This document shows, one piece after another, positions 9,858-46,716 of a DNA stretch of 54,862 nucleotides; within the stretch, counting starts at the first letter, position 1, and each line of letters opens with the position of its first letter. The translations under genes were made by a program, and so were the position numbers. The stretch lies in NCBI GenBank assembly GCA_944376225.1, contig CALWBZ010000100.1, positions 1 to 54,862 on the forward strand. Direction: 5' to 3'. The notes under the pieces were generated by a model. It had not been told where the DNA came from and searched no databases. It worked only from the letters and a program-made list of their open reading frames with translations. This stretch comes from an uncultured Clostridia bacterium. GTDB taxonomy: Bacteria; Bacillota; Clostridia; Lachnospirales; Bianqueaceae.

Positions 9858-10407
9858 GGCGCAGAAACTGTGGGACCGGCTGAAACAGGAGCATTGGGAG
9901 AGCGTGATCGTAGGGATCCACGAGGACTTATTCAACCTGGATGTTAAATGGCGGGCGCTGCCCCTGTTGAAAAAGTATTCCGTGACCGACCTGGAACTTC
10001 ACTGGATCGAGCCGGATACGGCCTATCTCAGCGGGCAGTCCTCCTTTGGCGGGGGCATCAGCCTGAGATACTATGTGAAGATCGAGAGACTCATGTTTGA
10101 AGAGGGGATGCACGCCCTGAGCCTTTCTTATATCGAAGAGGCGGAGAAGACGGCCGGTCTCATGACGGTCCTGGGAGGACTGGCCAAGACGGCCACGGGA
10201 AAGACCTATCTGCAAATGTTTGCGGGAAATCATCCCATGCTGCGGGTGGACGGGGAACGGATCTTAGTGGATCTGGATGCCTGGGAGGCGTTTCGGCGGG
10301 TTTCGGGGTGGACCTATGAGGATAAGACCATCGGACGGAATCTGAACATCGAAAACCTGGGAATGATGAACCGCTGCATCTGCCTGCGTTTTTCTTGGCG
10401 GTCTTAA
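9820..10407 (+). CDS. Conserved hypothetical protein
   Basis: A 195-residue soluble protein that I do not recognise. AAAGGAGACGACG precedes its ATG inside the tsaC 3' end, and the next gene begins 1 bp after its stop, so it is probably translated in this operon. It is acidic and aromatic-rich, without a clear signal peptide, membrane helix or nucleotide-binding loop. A segment near 115-135 (GLMTVLGGLAKTATGKTY) is small-residue rich but is not a Walker A motif. No function is proposed. Confidence 0.75.
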   Translation: MEEQVYLVKTLDEAQKLWDRLKQEHWESVIVGIHEDLFNLDVKWRALPLLKKYSVTDLELHWIEPDTAYLSGQSSFGGGISLRYYVKIERLMFEEGMHALSLSYIEEAEKTAGLMTVLGGLAKTATGKTYLQMFAGNHPMLRVDGERILVDLDAWEAFRRVSGWTYEDKTIGRNLNIENLGMMNRCICLRFSWRS

Positions 10408-10408
10408 G

Positions 10409-10906
10409 ATGGGAGAATATCAACACGCGGAACACGCCTTCGGGCCGGTCTGCGACGGCGCGTCGGAAATCTTGATTTTGGGGTCTTTTCCCTCGGTGAA
10501 GTCCAGGGAAGCGTCGTTTTATTATCATCATCCCCAGAACCGTTTCTGGCGTCTTCTCAGTCTTTTATATGAGGAGAATTTCCCCCAGAGTATCGAAGAG
10601 CGCAGAGCGTTCTTGCTGCGGCGACACATCGCCCTGTGGGATGTCATCGAAAGCTGCGATATCATCGGGTCCAGCGACACCAGCATACGCAATGTGCGGC
10701 CGGTGGATCTTGGGGAAATCCTGAACCGCGCGAGTATCCGGAAGATCTACGGAAACGGGACGAAGGCCTGTCAGCTTTACCGCCGTTACTGTGAAAAGGC
10801 CTGCGGCAGACCGATTCATCCCCTTCCTTCCACCAGTCCGGCCAACGCGGCCTGGAGCCTGGAACGGCTGCGGGAGGCCTGGGCCTGCATTCTGGAAACC
10901 AATTAA
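10409..10906 (+). CDS. UDG-superfamily DNA glycosylase (deoxyinosine glycosylase type)
   Basis: A 165-residue uracil-DNA-glycosylase-fold protein. ILGSFPSVKSREASFYYHHPQNRFW and PSTSPANA match the family that includes DNA-deoxyinosine (hypoxanthine) glycosylases. Such enzymes remove deaminated bases to start base excision repair. It starts 1 bp after the upstream stop and ends at a strong convergent terminator. The superfamily is clear; base preference (hypoxanthine, uracil or G:U mismatch) is from family knowledge only. Confidence 0.85.
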   Translation: MGEYQHAEHAFGPVCDGASEILILGSFPSVKSREASFYYHHPQNRFWRLLSLLYEENFPQSIEERRAFLLRRHIALWDVIESCDIIGSSDTSIRNVRPVDLGEILNRASIRKIYGNGTKACQLYRRYCEKACGRPIHPLPSTSPANAAWSLERLREAWACILETN

Positions 10907-10948
10907 AAAAGGGGGAGCGCTGCCAAAAAAAACAGCGCTTCCCCTTTT
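10907..10948. terminator. Bidirectional terminator between convergent genes
   Basis: A 16-bp stem pairs AAAAGGGGGAGCGCTG (10907-10922) with CAGCGCTTCCCCTTTT (10933-10948), with one G-T pair and an A-rich loop. T-tracts are present on both strands. It serves the glycosylase gene on plus and the methyltransferase gene on minus. Confidence 0.9.
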
Positions 10949-10953
10949 CGGAG

Positions 10954-12096
10954 TTAATCCTCTTCCTTTAGGATGGAGGGGTGGAGACGGAAGGCTTCAC
11001 AGAGGCGTTCGATTTCCTCGGCCGCCTTTTGTTTCGCGCTCTGAGAGACCGGCGCCTTGACGGCCCGGATCAACAGGTTCTTAGGGGTATGTTCCAGGTC
11101 CACAAATTCCAGAAGCTGGGTCTTATATCCCTTGGTCACCAGATAATTGGCCCTTATGGCGTCCGTCATCAGGGCGGAGAGGCGTTCTTTCACGATGCCG
11201 TAACGAGTCAGGATGGAAAGATCGTCACTCCCAATCTGTCCGTTCAACTCATGCTGAGAGCAGGGAACGGAGAAGATCATGGAAGCGCCGCAGGCCACCG
11301 CGTTTTGCAGGGCGAAATCCGTGGCGGTATCGCAGGCGTGAAGGGTGATCACCATATCCACGTTGGGTTCCTGACGGAAACCGTGGATATCCCCCACTTG
11401 AAACTGAAGCGTATCATAACCGTAGCGTTTCGCGGCGGCATTACAGCGAGCGATCACGTCCGCCTTTAGATCCAGGCCCAACATGGAGACGGGGATACCA
11501 CGGATCTGCGTGAAATAGTGATAAAGGATGAAGGTCAGATAGGACTTGCCGCAGCCGAAATCGATGATGCGAAGGGGCTTCGGAGGCAGATCGCGGATCG
11601 CGTCGTCCACCAGCTCCACGAACCGGTTGATCTGTCGGTATTTATCCGACATGGAAGGGATGAGCGTCCCCTCTTTGGTGAAGATTCCCATGTCCACGAG
11701 GGCGGGAATCACGGTGTCGGAGGCGAGCAGGTGGCGCTTAGGCCGGTTATGGGCCAGAGACAGCATGGCGGCGCCCTTAGAGAGAGCCTCGTGAAAGAGC
11801 ACGCGATTCTTCTTGGAGAGGCGGATGCTGTATTCATGATTGTCCGTCCAGGCATGGAGCTGGGCGTAACGCTCGGGCAGAAGGGCGTGCAGACGGCCTT
11901 CTAATTCCTGAGGATCATAATTTTCGTGAAAGACCTGGGTCGCGGTACGCCGGGCTTCCTGATAGTATCGCCGACCCTCCTCTTTTAGCAGGATCTCCCG
12001 ACGGGGATAGAGTTTTTCTTCTCCCCGGGGTTGGCTGAGGACGATGCGTTTGGGGGCGTCTTGTAAAATCTTGCCAAGGGCTTCTTCCAGGGTCAT
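10954..12096 (-). CDS. Class I SAM-dependent methyltransferase
   Basis: A 380-residue protein with a Rossmann methyltransferase domain in its second half. Motif I is IIDFGCGKSYLTF near 185-197, and later MVITLHACDTATD and a DLEHTPKNLLIRA segment fit the Methyltransf_32-like family. The N-terminal 150 residues are a family-specific extension. The substrate is unknown; RNA is plausible. It is the last gene of the dnaD-dnaC operon: its ATG overlaps the preceding stop by 4 bp (ATGA). Ends at the bidirectional terminator. Confidence 0.82.
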   Translation of the reverse strand: MTLEEALGKILQDAPKRIVLSQPRGEEKLYPRREILLKEEGRRYYQEARRTATQVFHENYDPQELEGRLHALLPERYAQLHAWTDNHEYSIRLSKKNRVLFHEALSKGAAMLSLAHNRPKRHLLASDTVIPALVDMGIFTKEGTLIPSMSDKYRQINRFVELVDDAIRDLPPKPLRIIDFGCGKSYLTFILYHYFTQIRGIPVSMLGLDLKADVIARCNAAAKRYGYDTLQFQVGDIHGFRQEPNVDMVITLHACDTATDFALQNAVACGASMIFSVPCSQHELNGQIGSDDLSILTRYGIVKERLSALMTDAIRANYLVTKGYKTQLLEFVDLEHTPKNLLIRAVKAPVSQSAKQKAAEEIERLCEAFRLHPSILKEED

Positions 12097-36545: not shown

Positions 36546-37970
36546 ATGAAAACGATTTATCAGATACGCGGCGTGATCTGCCGGTTTTTCATGCAGTATG
36601 AGTTAATCGCGAAGGTTTTGTTGAAATTCTGCGCTTACTTGTTTATTTTTCGGCAGATCGCGGGTTGGGACGGATTTTCTTCCGCGGGCGTGTTAAACGC
36701 CTTTTCCGTGCATATGCTGCTGGCGCTTTTATGCGTGCTGCTGCCCTCCCGCTTCGCGGTATTCTTTTCCTTTGGGATTATCATTTACAATATCTATCAG
36801 GTTTCCTTATGGGGCGCCTTGATGGCGGCGGTGATCCTGCTGATTCTTTACGTCATGGTGGCGAGGCTGTGCCCGGACGAGACGGTGCTCATGATTCTCC
36901 TGCCCCTGGCGATGAAATGGAACATGTTTATGATCGTGCCCCTGTTTGCGGGGCTGTATATGGGAGTCTTCTCCATCATCCCCTTGGTGGGGGGCGTGTT
37001 GGTATGGGGAATCCTGCGTATCCTTCCCGCTTTTCTGGCCTTTAGCGAGACGGAGTTTGAACAGCTTCCGGAGGCCTTTTCCGACACGGCAAATTATATC
37101 ATCGATCAGCTCGCCCTAAACGAAAACCTGATTTTCATGATGGTACTCTGCGCGGGCGTGGTTTTGGTCATTTATTTGCTGAACAAAATCAATATCAACT
37201 ACATGCGTTACATCTCCCTGGCGGCCGGGGCGATGGTGGGACTCGTATGCATGATCGTAGGCCGCGTGGTGGGCATGACGGACACGGGGATTTTCTCCGC
37301 GCTCCTGATTCCGGTCATCTCCCTGGCGATCATGGTGGTGGTAGAGTTCTTCCACATGGCGCTCAATTACAAGATGGCCCAACGGCTTACCTTTGTGGAT
37401 GACGAATACTATTATTACGTTCAGGCCGTGCCCAAGATCCTGGGGATCAAGAATAAGACCGAGGTCAAACGCATCACCGGAAACACCGACCCGGTGGAAG
37501 AGGTAAGGGAACAGCCCGCGCCGTCCCCGTCCCGGGAGGAGGAGCCGGCTGCCCAGCCCTCCGCGTTGACGGAAAAGCTGATGCATACGACCCAGAAGAT
37601 CGGCGAGCTGTTCACCCAGGTGGGGGACAAGGCCAAGGATCTTTGGGGCCAAGTGAAGGAAAAGCAGGCGCAGGGAAGCAAAGGAAAACAAGGGGAAGAA
37701 CCGGAAGCCCTATCCCGAGAGGAATTCATGGCGGAAGAGATTATGCCGGAAGAGCCCTGGACCGAGCCGGCTCCGGAGGAACCCCTTCAGGAAGACGCCG
37801 AGGAGGTGATCCCGGAGAGTTCTTTTGCGGATCAGATCCCTACCAAGGAGAATGTAGAGGAGCTGGCCAAGCGCACCGGATGGTCGGACGAGACCATTAA
37901 GGATTTCTTTGCCGGATTGGATCTGGATATGAAAGAGGCAGAAGACGATGAGGATCCGAACAGGCAATAA
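36546..37970 (+). CDS. Polytopic membrane protein with acidic cytoplasmic tail
   Basis: A 474-residue protein of unknown function. Roughly the first 280 residues hold about eight hydrophobic segments, such as LLALLCVLLPSRFAVFFSFG and IPLVGGVLVWGILRILPAFL. The rest is a hydrophilic Pro/Glu/Gln-rich tail (about 315-474) that looks largely disordered and ends in a short helical segment. No transporter signature is evident. It lies 41 bp after the small membrane protein and 95 bp before cdaA, with a hairpin between. Confidence 0.75.
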   Translation: MKTIYQIRGVICRFFMQYELIAKVLLKFCAYLFIFRQIAGWDGFSSAGVLNAFSVHMLLALLCVLLPSRFAVFFSFGIIIYNIYQVSLWGALMAAVILLILYVMVARLCPDETVLMILLPLAMKWNMFMIVPLFAGLYMGVFSIIPLVGGVLVWGILRILPAFLAFSETEFEQLPEAFSDTANYIIDQLALNENLIFMMVLCAGVVLVIYLLNKININYMRYISLAAGAMVGLVCMIVGRVVGMTDTGIFSALLIPVISLAIMVVVEFFHMALNYKMAQRLTFVDDEYYYYVQAVPKILGIKNKTEVKRITGNTDPVEEVREQPAPSPSREEEPAAQPSALTEKLMHTTQKIGELFTQVGDKAKDLWGQVKEKQAQGSKGKQGEEPEALSREEFMAEEIMPEEPWTEPAPEEPLQEDAEEVIPESSFADQIPTKENVEELAKRTGWSDETIKDFFAGLDLDMKEAEDDEDPNRQ

Positions 37971-40274: not shown

Positions 40275-41927
40275 GTGCCTAAGTTTTATAAAAAAGGCGC
40301 GATGGAATACGTGCAGTCCCATTGGGGCAAAGACTTTACGGAACGATTGCTGGAGGAACTCAATTTCCGCGACCTGGAGGATTTCTTTGTCGCCATGATG
40401 AAACGGGCGGACTGGATCCTGGACGATCAGACCTGGAACGACATGGAGCTCAATAGGGTCTACTGCAAGCTGAACCGGACCTATACGAGCCAGGGACAGC
40501 AGATGCTCTATAACATGCTGCGCACGCTGATCTTTGAAGAGGAGGAGCTCAAACGACGGGACCGGGTCATCGAGTTTTTCCAGCATAACAAAGAGGCAAG
40601 GGATAAGATCTCCTGCCTGCTGTTCTATCTGGGAAAGATGGAATATGACGGCACGGCCTCCCTTCTCTTTAAGGGAATCCCTAAGCTCCCGGATTACGCC
40701 AGTTATGCCAACGGCCTGACCATCGCCATGGCGGCGGCCATCGTCGCGATCCCCTTCTTTCATCTGGGCGGGCTGATGGCCACGGTCATCATGTTCGTGG
40801 TCAACACCATGTTCCATCAGAAGCTGAACATCAGTACCGAGGCCACCATGCCCGGCGTGCGCAATATCGCGCGGATGCTGACGGTGGCGGAGGAACTGGG
40901 GAATTTTCAGATCCCCCAGTTGGAAAAGCATTACAGCAGCTTTTTCCGTAAGTGTGTCAAGAAGTGCGAGATCATCAAGAAGAAGGCGGGGAAGCTGGGC
41001 ATCGGCGGGGGAGATCCCACCGGCATCTTCGAGTATGCCAAGATTTTGTTCCTCACGGAGGATCGGGCCTTCATCCGCTGTCTAAAGTACGTGGAGCAGG
41101 AAGCGCCGGTATTGAGGGTGCTTTATCGAAAACTGGGCGAGCTGGACGCTCTCTTATCGGTGGCCTCCTTCCGCAGAGGCTTACGACGGGTCACCAAGCC
41201 GGTCTTCGTAGCTGAACCCCGGTATTTCAAGGCGGAAAACATCGTTCATCCCCTGCTGACCCAGGGCGTGCCCAATTCCTTGGAAATGAAGGGGGGAAAC
41301 GTGGTCATCACCGGTTCCAACATGTCGGGAAAGTCTACATTCCTCCGGACGTTGGCCACGGGAGCCGTCCTGGCGCAGACCTTTTATACGGTGGTGGCGG
41401 ACAGCTACGAGGCGTCTTTCTTTAACATCCTCACCTCCATCAGTCCCAGCGACGATCTGATGGAAGGCAAGAGTTACTACATGGCGGAGGCGGAGGCGCT
41501 GCTTCGGATGGTGCAGGTGCTGGACGAAAACCGTACGTCGCTCCTGCTCATCGACGAGATCTTCCGAGGGACGAACCCGATCGAGCGGGTAGCCGCCGCC
41601 TCGGCCTTGCTGGAATACCTGGCCAGGCATAATACGATGGTCATCGTGGCCACCCATGATATCGAGATCACCCAGAAGGTGAAAGACCTATACGACAGCT
41701 ATCATTTCAGCGAGAAGGTGACGAAGGAATCGCTGGATTTCGACTATAAGCTCAAGCCGGGCGTCCTGCGGGTGCCCAACGGCATACGGATCCTGGAATA
41801 TCTGGGATATCCGGAAGAGATTACGGAAGAAGCATTCCGGGAGACCGGTTATGTGGGCTTTACGGCGCCCGAGGAAGAAGAGGAGCCGGAGGCCGAAGAC
41901 GGAAAGGGGGACACACAGGATGAATAA
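40275..41927 (+). CDS. MutS-like ATPase with membrane hairpin
   Basis: A 550-residue protein with a MutS C-terminal ABC-type ATPase: Walker A GSNMSGKST (about 350-358), Walker B LLLIDEIFRGTNPIE (about 423-437) and HD in ATHDIEIT. It lacks the MutS mismatch-recognition and connector domains. Residues 147-180 (GLTIAMAAAIVAIPFFHLGG onwards) form one or two membrane segments within a clamp-like helical region. It is thus a MutS-family paralogue of unknown role, not MutS1 or MutS2. GTG start at 40275 after GGGAGG. It overlaps the next gene by 8 bp. Confidence 0.85.
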   Translation: MPKFYKKGAMEYVQSHWGKDFTERLLEELNFRDLEDFFVAMMKRADWILDDQTWNDMELNRVYCKLNRTYTSQGQQMLYNMLRTLIFEEEELKRRDRVIEFFQHNKEARDKISCLLFYLGKMEYDGTASLLFKGIPKLPDYASYANGLTIAMAAAIVAIPFFHLGGLMATVIMFVVNTMFHQKLNISTEATMPGVRNIARMLTVAEELGNFQIPQLEKHYSSFFRKCVKKCEIIKKKAGKLGIGGGDPTGIFEYAKILFLTEDRAFIRCLKYVEQEAPVLRVLYRKLGELDALLSVASFRRGLRRVTKPVFVAEPRYFKAENIVHPLLTQGVPNSLEMKGGNVVITGSNMSGKSTFLRTLATGAVLAQTFYTVVADSYEASFFNILTSISPSDDLMEGKSYYMAEAEALLRMVQVLDENRTSLLLIDEIFRGTNPIERVAAASALLEYLARHNTMVIVATHDIEITQKVKDLYDSYHFSEKVTKESLDFDYKLKPGVLRVPNGIRILEYLGYPEEITEEAFRETGYVGFTAPEEEEEPEAEDGKGDTQDE

Positions 41928-44337
41928 GAAATCTTTGCAGGAAATGATGCCGCTCGCGGACGTGCTCAACCGGGACATCGTCTGCGACTGCGGCAAGATC
42001 CATCGGGCGGATATCGACGCCGTGGTGATCGGACAGGGAGCGATGGAATACGTGCCCCAGCTCCTTACCCAGCGGGGCATGGGGACGGTCATGCTCTTGG
42101 AAGACACCCATACCTATGACGCCGCGGGAAAGCAGGCCGCCGAGATCATCCGGGGAGCGGGCATCACCGTCTATGAGATGATCTACCGAAGGGAGGAGGG
42201 CTGGGTCACCGCCGACGAACAGGCGATGGACGAGGGCGCCGCCTTCTTTCACGGGTGCGAGACGCGGCCGGACGTGATTATTTCCGTAGGATCCGGTACC
42301 ATGAACGACTTGGGCAAGGTCATCGGCAGCATGGTGGACGCCCCCCAGTGGGTGATCGGCACCGCCGCTTCCATGGACGGGTACGCCTCCACCGTGGCGG
42401 CGCTGGTCAGGAATAACCTGAAGGTGACGGAATATTACGACCCGCCCAAGGTGATCGTGGGAGATACCGCGATTTTAGCGAAAGCGCCCCGTTCTATGAC
42501 CCTAGCGGGGATCGGGGATATGGCGGCCAAGTATAACTCGGGACTGGACTGGCGTTTAAGTCACCTGATCACGGGGGAGTATTACTGTGATTTCGTGGCC
42601 AAGGCCATGCTCGAGGTGACGGATCAGATCATGGATCTGGCCCTGGAAGCGCCGGAAGAGGGTGAATTCGGCGACGATCTTCTGGAAAGACTGATGGAAG
42701 GGCTGGTGCTTTCCGGCGTTTATATGAGCTACATGGGCTCTTCCCGGGCGGCTTCCGGCTCGGAGCATCATTTCTCTCATTTCTGGGAGATGTGGCTGCA
42801 GCTCAACGGGAAACCGGCGATTTACCACGGCACCAAGGTGGGCGTGGGAACCCTGATCATGGACCGGCTGTACCGGGAGTTTCTGAACATCGAGATCGAG
42901 GCCCGCAGGGTGATCCCGAGGCTGAGAAAATTCGACGTGGAGGCTTACCGCAAGACGCTGGCGAAAGTCTACGGCGCCGCCGCGCCGGCGATCTTGGCGG
43001 ACTATCATTATGACGCGGAAGAAAGGATCGAGCGGCTGAACAAGATCTTAGAGAACCGCAGGACGATCAACGCCATGATCCGGGAGACCTTGCCTTCCCT
43101 GGACAAGATGCGTAAGGCCATGGAGCATGTGGGGGCGGTGAGAGACTGGACCGGACTGCCCTTCATCACAGGAGAGGTGGCCTTAGAGGCGCTTTTGTAC
43201 TGCAAGGAGATGCGTCCTCACTATACGCTGTTACAGATGATGCAGGATGTGGGCGTCAACATTCGCAAGTTCGCCCCCAAGCTGACGGAGGCGGGGTATT
43301 TGCGCCTGGATCAGATCCAGATGCGGGATCCTTTCGTGCTGCCGGTTCCCGAAGAGAAGAAGTATTACCTGTTCGGCACCACGGATCCCAGCTGCTGGAA
43401 GGGGCCTTTTTACGGCTTCGACTGCTTCGTCAGCGAGGATCTAAAGACCTGGCAGGGGCCCATCGCCGCCTTCCGTCCGAAGGAGGATTTCTGGGCCGAT
43501 AAGAATTTCTGGGCCCCGGAGGTTCACCGCTACAAGGGGAAATACTATATGTTCGCCACCTTTGGCGCCGAAGGACGTCTTAAGGGAACGCAGATTCTGC
43601 GGGCGGATAAGCCGGAAGGACCCTATGAACCGATCTCGGAAGGTCCCGTCACCCCCGGGGATTGGGATTGTCTGGACGGAACCTTCTACCTGGATCCCAA
43701 GGGGAAACCCTGGATCGTCTTCTGCCATGAATGGACCCAGATCATCGACGGCGAGATCGTGGCGATGCCTTTGAAGAAGGATTTAACCGCTCCGGCGGGA
43801 GAGCCGGTGAAGCTCTTTGCCGCCTCGGAGGCCCCCTGGGCCCAGGGACGGCCCTGGAAGGAAAGACACCCGGAGAGCGATTTAGACGCCCTGAGCTACG
43901 TGACGGACGGGCCCTTCCTGGTGGAAGAAGAAGGAAGGCTCATCATGCTCTGGTCGGGGAGGGGCCCCAAGGGCTACGCGATGGGTTCCGCCTGCTCGGA
44001 AGGCGGCATCTTAGGCCCCTGGAAACAGAATAAGCGCCTGGCCTTCCAGGAGGACGGCGGACACGGCATGGTGTTTAAGACTTTCGAGGGAAAGCTTTTG
44101 ATGACCGTGCACCAGCCGAATCAGACGCCCAATGAGCGTCCCAAGTTCTTCCCGGCCAAGATTTCCGACGGAGAAATTCTCCTGGAGAAGGGCCGCGGGA
44201 GCGCTTCCGGCGCCAAGGCTCCCGCGAAAAAGAGCGAACCGAAGAAGGAGGCCGTCAAGGCAGCCTCTCCGGTGGAAAAGAAAAAGTCTAACGATTCGGT
44301 TCGGTTTACGCAGGATATGCCCTACTGGCTCTTATAA
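41920..44337 (+). CDS. Fusion: AraM-type sn-glycerol-1-phosphate dehydrogenase + GH43-type propeller
   Basis: One 805-residue frame. Residues 1 to about 455 match AraM/EgsA NAD(P)-dependent sn-glycerol-1-phosphate dehydrogenase: GSGTMNDLGK (about 124-133), with predicted metal ligands in GIGD (Asp200), SEHHFSHFWE (281-290) and the HGTK histidine near 303. From about 461 a GH43-like five-bladed propeller begins, with RDPFVLPV (Asp470), FWAPEVHRYKGKYYMFAT (WAPEV 531-535), DWDCLDGTFYLD and HEW (Glu604). A Lys-rich tail closes it. There is no signal peptide, so it should be cytoplasmic. GGAAAGGGGG precedes ATG 41920. Each domain is recognisable; the joint function is unknown. Confidence 0.88.
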   Translation: MNKKSLQEMMPLADVLNRDIVCDCGKIHRADIDAVVIGQGAMEYVPQLLTQRGMGTVMLLEDTHTYDAAGKQAAEIIRGAGITVYEMIYRREEGWVTADEQAMDEGAAFFHGCETRPDVIISVGSGTMNDLGKVIGSMVDAPQWVIGTAASMDGYASTVAALVRNNLKVTEYYDPPKVIVGDTAILAKAPRSMTLAGIGDMAAKYNSGLDWRLSHLITGEYYCDFVAKAMLEVTDQIMDLALEAPEEGEFGDDLLERLMEGLVLSGVYMSYMGSSRAASGSEHHFSHFWEMWLQLNGKPAIYHGTKVGVGTLIMDRLYREFLNIEIEARRVIPRLRKFDVEAYRKTLAKVYGAAAPAILADYHYDAEERIERLNKILENRRTINAMIRETLPSLDKMRKAMEHVGAVRDWTGLPFITGEVALEALLYCKEMRPHYTLLQMMQDVGVNIRKFAPKLTEAGYLRLDQIQMRDPFVLPVPEEKKYYLFGTTDPSCWKGPFYGFDCFVSEDLKTWQGPIAAFRPKEDFWADKNFWAPEVHRYKGKYYMFATFGAEGRLKGTQILRADKPEGPYEPISEGPVTPGDWDCLDGTFYLDPKGKPWIVFCHEWTQIIDGEIVAMPLKKDLTAPAGEPVKLFAASEAPWAQGRPWKERHPESDLDALSYVTDGPFLVEEEGRLIMLWSGRGPKGYAMGSACSEGGILGPWKQNKRLAFQEDGGHGMVFKTFEGKLLMTVHQPNQTPNERPKFFPAKISDGEILLEKGRGSASGAKAPAKKSEPKKEAVKAASPVEKKKSNDSVRFTQDMPYWLL

Positions 44338-44343
44338 GGAGCC

Positions 44344-46716
44344 ATGGAAGAGCAGAAACCCTATGTCTTCTCCGTCCGGCAGATGGTGGAGTTTATCTGC
44401 CGGAGGGGGGATCTGACCGGAGGATTCGGAGGAAGCGTCCAGCGCGCCCTGGAGGGTACCCGGGTGCATCAGAAGCTGCAAAAGAGCCGTTCCGGCGCTT
44501 ATCAGAGCGAGGTCGCCCTGAAGACGCGGGAGATCCTTTCCGACGGACTGATCCTTCAAGTGGAGGGAAGGGCAGACGGCGTGGAAGAATTTCCCGAGAA
44601 GGATCCTCCCGCCTGTATCGAAGAAATAAAGTCTACCTATGCCCCGGCGGATCGGCTCGGGTTTTCCTTCCAGCCGACTCACCGGGGACAGCTCTTATGT
44701 TACGGGTATATTCTGTGTAAGACAAAAGGGTGGGAGAGGGTTCTTCTGCGTCTCACCTATTATCAGATGGAGACGGATCAGGAATATTCCTTCGACGAAG
44801 TGTGGGATTTTCCTGCGCTGGAAACCTTCTTTCAGGAGACGCTGTCGGAATACGCCAAATGGATCCGCTGGCAGGAAGATCACCGGCAGAAAAGGACGGA
44901 GTCCCTGGGGACGCTGGAGTTTCCCTTTCCCGCCTACCGGGAGGGGCAGCGTACCATGGCCGCCTATATCTATAAGACGATCGAGAAGGGCGGCGGCCTC
45001 TTTTTGCAGGCGCCCACCGGTATCGGCAAGACGATCTCCGCCCTCTTTCCCGCCCTCAAGGCCATGGGACAGGGGCTGACGGGGCGGATCTTCTACCTCA
45101 CGGCCAAGACCGCCACGGCCCTCTCCGCCCAGGAGGCTTTGGGGAGGCTTAAAAGTCAGCGTCCCCGGCTTCTGAGCATCGTTTTGACGGCGAAGGATAA
45201 GATCTGTCCGTTCCCGGACAAAAGATGCGCCCCCGGGGAATGCCCTTACGCGAAAGGCCACTATGACCGGGTCATGGACGCGGTCTATGCCGCGATAGGG
45301 AAGGAGACGAGCCTTTACCGGCAGAAGGTGCTGGAATACGCCGAACGCTTCCGGGTTTGTCCCTTCGAGCTGGAACTGGATATTTCCAGCTGGGCCGACG
45401 TGATCATCGGAGACTATAACTACGCCTTCGATCCCACGGCTTCGTTAAAGCGCTTCTTTCAGGAAGGAAAAAGCGATTATACGCTTCTGGTGGACGAGGC
45501 GCATAACCTTCCGGACAGGGCCAGAAGCATGTTTAGCGCGCAGGTGAGCAGTCAGGATTTCAGGCGGTTCGCCCAGTCCTTGAAGGGGAAGAAAGGCTCC
45601 TCTATCAGGCGGCTCCGGCGCAAGCTAAAGGAGATCCTCGACGATCTTACGGAGCAGGAGGATAGTCTTCAAGTTGGGGAAATGCTCAGGGAAGAGGCGC
45701 CTTCGGAGGCCTTTTGCCTTCTCCTGCAGGATTTTCTCCTATGCCTTTCGGAGTATCTTGAAGAGGAGAATGAGGAGGAGTGGATGGAATTTTATTTCTC
45801 CTTACTCTTTTTCCTCAAGATGCGGGAGGAGTACGACGAGAGTTCCGTGACCTACTGGGAACGTCAGGACGGGGATCTTATCTATCATATTTTTTGCATT
45901 CATCCGGCCAAGAAGCTGGAGGAGACCTACCGCAAGGTGCGGGCGGTGATCCTTTTCTCCGCGACCCTCCTGCCGGTGGCGTATTATAAGGAACTTCTGG
46001 GAGGAAACAATCCGGAAACTCCCATGCCCGCCATCGATCTGCCCTCGCCCTTCGATCCTTCCCATAAAAAGGTATTGATCGCGGCGGGGATCCGTACCGA
46101 TTATCAGAACCGGGAGCAGACGATCGGCGCGGTGGCGGCGGCGATCTACCGCGCGACGCAGGCGAAGGAGGGAAACTATCTCGTGTTTTTCCCCTCCTAT
46201 CTGTATCTGCGGCGGGTGGCGGACTTCTTTCGGGATGCCTATCCCTCCATTCGGCTGTGGATCCAGGAAGCGGGGATGAAAGAAGAAGAGAGGGACGCCT
46301 TCCTGGAACATTTTCAAGAAGAAGGTCCCCGGGGCATCGGTTTTGCCGTGCTGGGGGGCATGTTTTCGGAGGGAATCGACCTAAGGGGCCGGCGTCTTGT
46401 GGGCTGCGTCATCGTTTCCGTGGGGATGCCCCAGATCGGCCCGGAACGGGATCTGGTCCGGGACTACATGGACAAAGCCCACGGAAGCGGATTCGACTAC
46501 GCCTACCGGTATCCCGGGCTGAACAAGGTCTTTCAGGCGGCGGGACGGGTCATCCGAACCGAGGAAGATCGGGGGATCATTCTCCTCATCGATCATCGAT
46601 ACCGGGAAGAACGGTACAGACGCAATTTCCCGGCGGATTGGACGCCGGTATGGGTAAGCCAGGAGCAGATTGGCCCGACGCTTACGGAATTTTGGAAGAA
46701 ACAGGAGTGGGAATAG
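44344..46716 (+). CDS. PD-(D/E)XK nuclease fused to DinG/XPD-type Fe-S helicase
   Basis: A 790-residue protein. The N-terminal ~190 residues look like a Cas4/RecB-type PD-(D/E)XK nuclease (GRADGV with Asp78, then EEIKS with Glu94 and Lys96). The rest is a Rad3/XPD/DinG superfamily-2 helicase: Walker A APTGIGKT (223-230), four cysteines for a 4Fe-4S cluster (288, 295, 300, 339), VDEAH (383-387), and helicase motifs V-VI near GMFSEGIDL and QAAGRVIR. It is probably a 5'-3' DNA helicase-nuclease in repair. It starts 6 bp after the preceding stop. Confidence 0.9.
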   Translation: MEEQKPYVFSVRQMVEFICRRGDLTGGFGGSVQRALEGTRVHQKLQKSRSGAYQSEVALKTREILSDGLILQVEGRADGVEEFPEKDPPACIEEIKSTYAPADRLGFSFQPTHRGQLLCYGYILCKTKGWERVLLRLTYYQMETDQEYSFDEVWDFPALETFFQETLSEYAKWIRWQEDHRQKRTESLGTLEFPFPAYREGQRTMAAYIYKTIEKGGGLFLQAPTGIGKTISALFPALKAMGQGLTGRIFYLTAKTATALSAQEALGRLKSQRPRLLSIVLTAKDKICPFPDKRCAPGECPYAKGHYDRVMDAVYAAIGKETSLYRQKVLEYAERFRVCPFELELDISSWADVIIGDYNYAFDPTASLKRFFQEGKSDYTLLVDEAHNLPDRARSMFSAQVSSQDFRRFAQSLKGKKGSSIRRLRRKLKEILDDLTEQEDSLQVGEMLREEAPSEAFCLLLQDFLLCLSEYLEEENEEEWMEFYFSLLFFLKMREEYDESSVTYWERQDGDLIYHIFCIHPAKKLEETYRKVRAVILFSATLLPVAYYKELLGGNNPETPMPAIDLPSPFDPSHKKVLIAAGIRTDYQNREQTIGAVAAAIYRATQAKEGNYLVFFPSYLYLRRVADFFRDAYPSIRLWIQEAGMKEEERDAFLEHFQEEGPRGIGFAVLGGMFSEGIDLRGRRLVGCVIVSVGMPQIGPERDLVRDYMDKAHGSGFDYAYRYPGLNKVFQAAGRVIRTEEDRGIILLIDHRYREERYRRNFPADWTPVWVSQEQIGPTLTEFWKKQEWE

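Follow-up and report, generated by a model that had tools for sequence, protein, structure and literature searches.

We report that a single reading frame in DNA of an uncultured Clostridia bacterium (contig CALWBZ010000100.1; the window, meaning the whole stretch analysed here, is 54,862 nucleotides long) joins an AraM/EgsA-type dehydrogenase to a propeller of glycoside hydrolase family 43 (GH43). The join of AraM and GH43 is genuine and conserved. The architecture is new, both component families are already known, and the fusion is restricted to a small lineage. With a probability of roughly 0.5, it would be a cytosolic protein, confined to one lineage, whose two enzyme units work side by side and pass no common intermediate between them. 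The GH43 half would trim imported plant-wall oligosaccharides. The AraM half would be a metal- and NAD(P)H-dependent enzyme that converts a small phosphorylated ketone into the alcohol and back, the pair most likely being dihydroxyacetone phosphate (DHAP) and sn-glycerol-1-phosphate (G1P) or a near relative. The fusion would give equal amounts and shared localisation of the two, perhaps via a conserved C-terminal peptide.

Frame and distribution of the fusion

The 805-residue protein consists of a complete AraM/EgsA-type dehydrogenase (residues 1-447), a short linker, an equally complete GH43 propeller (464-755) and a disordered Lys-rich tail. Pfam analysis revealed Fe-ADH_2 (PF13685) at residues 36-190 (6e-27; 94.9 bits against a cut-off of 28) and Glyco_hydro_43 (PF04616) at residues 468-735 (4.8e-32; 111.9 bits against a cut-off of 32.2), both above the curated cut-offs. 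Thus, the domain assignments made in a first-pass annotation of the window were upheld, and its RDPF and WAPEV motifs lie where it had placed them. It had also described one uninterrupted frame; all 805 codons are open, and a missed stop or frameshift near 43290-43330, which would have refuted that description, was looked for and was absent, the junction being open in four relatives as well. Since four independently assembled relatives from two genera carry the fusion in the same operon, an error of assembly or reading was rejected. An assembly chimera, frameshift or missed stop joining two neighbouring genes is a negligible explanation, ruled out because five genomes, from different projects, share this junction with no in-frame stop, and nothing was found in its favour. 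The frame starts (ATG at 41920) before the upstream MutS-like gene stops at 41927, an overlap of eight bases. No hydrophobic leader was found in the fusion protein, in agreement with the cytoplasmic location proposed earlier.

The fusion was found in five genomes, namely that of the window, G001 (87% identity), G012 and G005 (72%) and G009 (68%), with the same neighbours. In another relative (G002) the contig end cuts the gene after residue 205, and it was not counted either way. When 84,980 named species genomes were scanned with two peptide patterns, which a very divergent fusion could escape, these four fusions were traced to the metagenome-assembled genomes UBA1390, RUG12817, RGIG2801 and RGIG2938, the last two from goat omasum, and no further case appeared. 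Samples drawn evenly from the order (392 genomes), class (391) and phylum (398), which overlap slightly and come to about 1,100 genomes, gave no further protein covering both halves; the best two candidates per genome were scored, which suffices for detecting a fusion and not for counting paralogues. Single AraM and single GH43 proteins were common in these samples. The fusion is thus limited to two genera of one clostridial family, uncultured relatives of gut and rumen Clostridia, and the pairing proved as unusual as had been supposed.

Genera of this family differ at the locus. In g2 and g5, as far as they can be read clearly, the DinG-like gene directly follows the MutS-like gene with no AraM there. 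In g3 an AraM gene with about 56% identity to the first half of the window protein, and without GH43, lies between the two, and in g1 and g4 the GH43 unit is placed between the AraM domain and the tail. The GH43 domains of the fusions group in a single, fully supported clade, and the AraMs of the locus form a clade of their own; therefore, one fusion event suffices. On the simplest reading, a tailed AraM existed before GH43 was inserted into it, although g3 may instead have lost GH43. The stepwise states at one locus (AraM absent, AraM plus tail, and AraM-GH43 plus tail) offer a natural series for the study of domain capture.

The two halves and their relatives

Standalone AraM proteins stop at a position equivalent to about residue 446 of the fusion. 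The glycine-rich NAD motif GSGT was located at residues 124-127 by alignment, and the Asp-His-His ligands of the family are present as D182, H283 and H303. The roles given to these ligands and to the GH43 triad are predicted from established knowledge of Fe-ADH/G1P dehydrogenases and GH43 enzymes together with the alignments. The solved structure nearest to the first half is 9h4x, a glycerol-1-phosphate dehydrogenase (1.5e-36), followed by archaeal G1P dehydrogenases; 9h4x, so labelled, is presumably of the Bacillus subtilis AraM type. The first half shares with that type the fold family, the GSGT motif, the metal ligands and the SGxEHHxSH and HGxKVG motifs. It differs from B. subtilis AraM in its low identity, in the extra GH43 unit and tail, in lying outside an ara operon, and in that no PcrB or AraA above cut-off was found in the genomes of family and order examined. 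G1P as the substrate of the AraM half is suggested by its family membership. A CxCGxxH motif near the N-terminus (residues 22-28, window 41983-42003) is kept in the fusions and in standalone clostridial AraMs, and is a possible extra metal site.

AraM of B. subtilis is an sn-glycerol-1-phosphate dehydrogenase that depends on Ni (Guldan 2008, cited in PMC13400652), and araL adjoins araM in the araABDLMNPQ-abfA operon of that organism (PMC3207120). A connection of AraM with arabinose and sugar-phosphate metabolism is therefore known. Other relatives carry similar associations. At one locus (L199) an AraM relative lies near a gene for an alpha-L-arabinofuranosidase and a partial GH43 that belongs to a different group, and in other Clostridia AraM is the N-terminal half, as here, of proteins of about 730 residues (L192:8745-10949, L193:8446-10680 and L194:8227-10425). 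The partner in these, however, is an AraL-like HAD-type phosphatase, with an FGGY kinase gene adjoining in L192 and L193. Such a protein could make glycerol as an electron sink by DHAP reduction and dephosphorylation.

The second half has the five-bladed beta-propeller of GH43, as supported by the AlphaFold2 (AF2) model, in which the predicted local distance difference test (pLDDT) score was mostly above 90, and by Foldseek matches to GH43 structures; the Asp-Asp-Glu triad is complete (D470, D586 and E604). Its nearest solved relative by sequence is 5c0p, an 'endo-arabinase' of Bacteroides thetaiotaomicron (1.1e-70), which was also the best fold match of the model (TM-score of 0.91 on target). 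Thus, the Pfam and Foldseek matches bear out the GH43 propeller predicted for this half. Standalone cytosolic GH43s related to 5c0p match the unit over its whole length with about 48-61% identity and the same triad, and span Bacillota, Chloroflexota, Lentisphaerota, Spirochaetota, Actinomycetota and others. In contrast to the fusion, these are single-domain proteins, mostly of 290-340 residues, and an AraM gene was near none of the 72 other GH43 loci inspected. Directly beside them are encoded, among others, LacI regulators, solute-binding proteins, GFO/IDH/MocA oxidoreductases and further glycosidases, a setting that fits hydrolysis of imported oligosaccharides. The same GH43 group is N-terminal to a D-galactarate/altronate dehydratase in the Clostridiales MAG Nc350_bin65 (L125:3344-5854), and follows an alpha-L-rhamnosidase-type domain in a 989-residue frame (L200:6404-9373). 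These independent fusions suggest that the group readily joins carbohydrate enzymes. What appears to be the same fusion as in L125 was seen in L051 (G173).

With 60 related proteins as input rows, the AF2 model was confident for the propeller (about 466-755) and mostly so for the Rossmann domain (about 40-150), and poor for the AraM helical domain; prediction from five close relatives only gave a pLDDT of 39. The ratio of non-synonymous to synonymous substitution rates (dN/dS) against four orthologues was 0.03-0.16 in the AraM part and did not exceed about 0.12 in the GH43 part; these values are rough, since synonymous sites approach or exceed saturation. Strong purifying selection acts on both halves, and the linker and most of the tail vary freely.

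Function of the fusion protein

The reading of two independent enzymes is supported because predicted catalytic residues are kept in both halves under purifying selection, because AraM occurs without GH43 in g3 and is absent from the locus in g2 and g5, because the GH43 relatives mostly have a single domain and are often encoded next to LacI regulators and sugar-binding proteins, and because AraM relatives are found with an arabinofuranosidase or FGGY-kinase gene nearby or with a HAD phosphatase fused to them.

Several points weigh against this reading, besides the saturation of synonymous sites. Most of the genomes are incomplete metagenome assemblies. The clade of locus AraMs has a long stem (1.33 changes per site), and is altered at positions nearly invariant in standalone AraMs (P98A, P150A, R247E, A268Y and P277A). 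P150 belongs to the TAPS motif and P277 to the SRPASG motif, which adjoins the metal ligand H283; the window protein and nearly all its clade have TAAS and SRAASG instead. The long stem together with P150A, P277A and R247E suggests that the substrate of the clade may differ. We also searched 11 genomes, that of the window and ten others (10 of the 11 from the same family, several incomplete), for AraA, XylA and PcrB, with positive controls from B. subtilis. Neither AraA (AraA_N) nor XylA was matched in these genomes of family and order, which leaves the use of a pentose released in the cytosol unexplained. The PcrB search gave only fragments below the cut-off. Such absences could partly reflect incomplete genomes, yet they are consistent over genera. 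They speak against the link to arabinose catabolism and against the synthesis of a G1P glycolipid, both suggested in the first-pass annotation. PlsY and PlsC can use G1P (PMC13400652), and therefore G1P could still enter lipids without PcrB. In G000 and ten relatives, 1-14 GH43 matches per genome were obtained alongside no AraA or XylA match.

It is possible, though we hold it only tentatively, that the AraM half has changed function, keeping its metal site and NAD fold while acting on another substrate, such as a sugar or sugar phosphate released by GH43. The long stem, the changes of TAPSMDG to TAASMDG and SRPASG to SRAASG and R247E, as compared to 15-16 of 16 standalone AraMs, would fit such a change, as would the lack of a PcrB above cut-off and a score of 153.7 bits with the NCBIfam G1P dehydrogenase model PRK00843, far below its cut-off of 413, although this equivalog may rest on archaeal enzymes. 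However, the metal ligands, SGSEHH and HGTKVG are kept, and the same residue changes are present in g3, which has no GH43. The changes therefore predate the fusion or are independent of it, and do not track it.

Coupling through a substrate, in which GH43 would cleave a glycerol- or glycerolphosphate-linked glycoside and AraM would oxidise the released G1P, is unlikely. The two units do share a single cytosolic chain in all complete copies found in the two genera, but no AraM gene was near the other GH43 loci recovered (0 of 72) and g3 has AraM without GH43 at the same locus. We know of no GH43 activity on glycerol- or glycerolphosphate-linked glycosides, which counts against it further. Less probable still is a single enzyme in which GH43 frees a G1P-type aglycone, for example from glycosylated archaeal-type or other gut G1P lipids, and AraM oxidises it to DHAP; if true, it would be a bacterial route to G1P lipids as food.

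Also improbable is that the GH43 unit serves as a non-hydrolytic sugar-binding or scaffold domain, with the conserved C-terminal peptide docking a partner. The C-terminal [ML]P[YV]WLL is retained whether or not GH43 is present, even as the remainder of the tail drifts; proteins of g3 and g4 terminate in KKKEELPYWLL, KKKDELPVWLL or similar, and the window protein in MPYWLL. In four genomes searched, the motif was found only on the locus AraM protein and on one short open reading frame of doubtful reality. On the other hand, the acidic triad and its surroundings are nearly invariant with the single-domain relatives, which would be unusual for a dead enzyme. The g3 AraM (L086-L089, C-termini, about 9998-11653) has a tail of some 100 residues in which basic, AT-hook-like motifs (KKRGRKPGSKNKPK and KRRGRPKK) precede the terminal LPYWLL, so that a dehydrogenase here bears a DNA-binding-like tail.

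Some bacteria keep AraM, often beside arabinose and arabinan genes. A stable AraM-glycosidase fusion in organisms without detected PcrB or AraA offers a clean test of the role of bacterial AraM where it neither lies in an ara operon nor feeds the known ether-lipid enzyme. It is a good but not exceptional target for biochemistry.

Features and operon context

Table 1. Positions in the window of the fusion gene, its parts and its conserved neighbours
Feature	Positions	Strand	Basis
Fusion gene, complete, 805 codons and stop	41920..44337	+	Open frame; orthologues
AraM-like NAD-binding (Rossmann) domain, residues 34-190	42019..42489	+	Pfam Fe-ADH_2 6e-27; AF2 pLDDT about 80-97 over most of 40-150, lower beyond
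AraM-like C-terminal helical metal-binding domain, residues 191-447	42490..43260	+	Aligned with 9h4x and archaeal G1P dehydrogenases; AF2 confidence low
D182, predicted metal ligand	42463..42465	+	Invariant in fusions, conserved in standalone AraM; aligns with Asp of G1P dehydrogenases
H283, predicted metal ligand, SGSEHH motif	42766..42768	+	Alignments with fusions, standalone AraMs and G1P dehydrogenases
H303, predicted metal ligand, HGTKVG motif	42826..42828	+	Alignments with fusions, standalone AraMs and G1P dehydrogenases
Interdomain linker, residues 448-463, about 16 residues, gap-free among five fusions	43261..43308	+	Alignment; relaxed constraint, dN/dS 0.3-1.3
GH43 five-bladed propeller, residues 464-755	43309..44184	+	Pfam 4.8e-32; AF2 pLDDT mostly >90; Foldseek 5c0p E 6e-30, TM 0.91
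D470, predicted GH43 catalytic base (RDPF)	43327..43329	+	Nearly invariant in 60 aligned proteins; conserved in 5c0p
D586, predicted GH43 pKa modulator (LDGT)	43675..43677	+	Column invariant where aligned; conserved in 5c0p
E604, predicted GH43 catalytic acid (FCHEW)	43729..43731	+	Nearly invariant; conserved in 5c0p
Lys/Ala/Pro-rich disordered tail	44185..44334	+	AF2 pLDDT <50 for 759-805; terminal MPYWLL at 44317-44334
MutS-like gene, upstream conserved neighbour, MutS domains III and V	40275..41927	+	Pfam; kept in relatives
DinG/Rad3-like helicase gene, downstream conserved neighbour	44344..46716	+	Pfam; kept in relatives

As the operon occurs without AraM in some genera of the family, AraM must have been inserted late into what is a housekeeping operon, and the interest that had been attached to its place in a cyclic di-AMP (c-di-AMP)/envelope operon is not supported. 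A functional link to CdaA/YbbR was considered and is not supported, the operon existing without AraM.

Upstream of cdaA, the window encodes a fast-diverging protein of 474 residues (36546-37970) without Pfam or NCBIfam match at E 0.01, which occupies the same place in several genomes of the family. The MutS-like protein is short, comprising just domains III and V, and is present in 18 of 19 genomes of the family.

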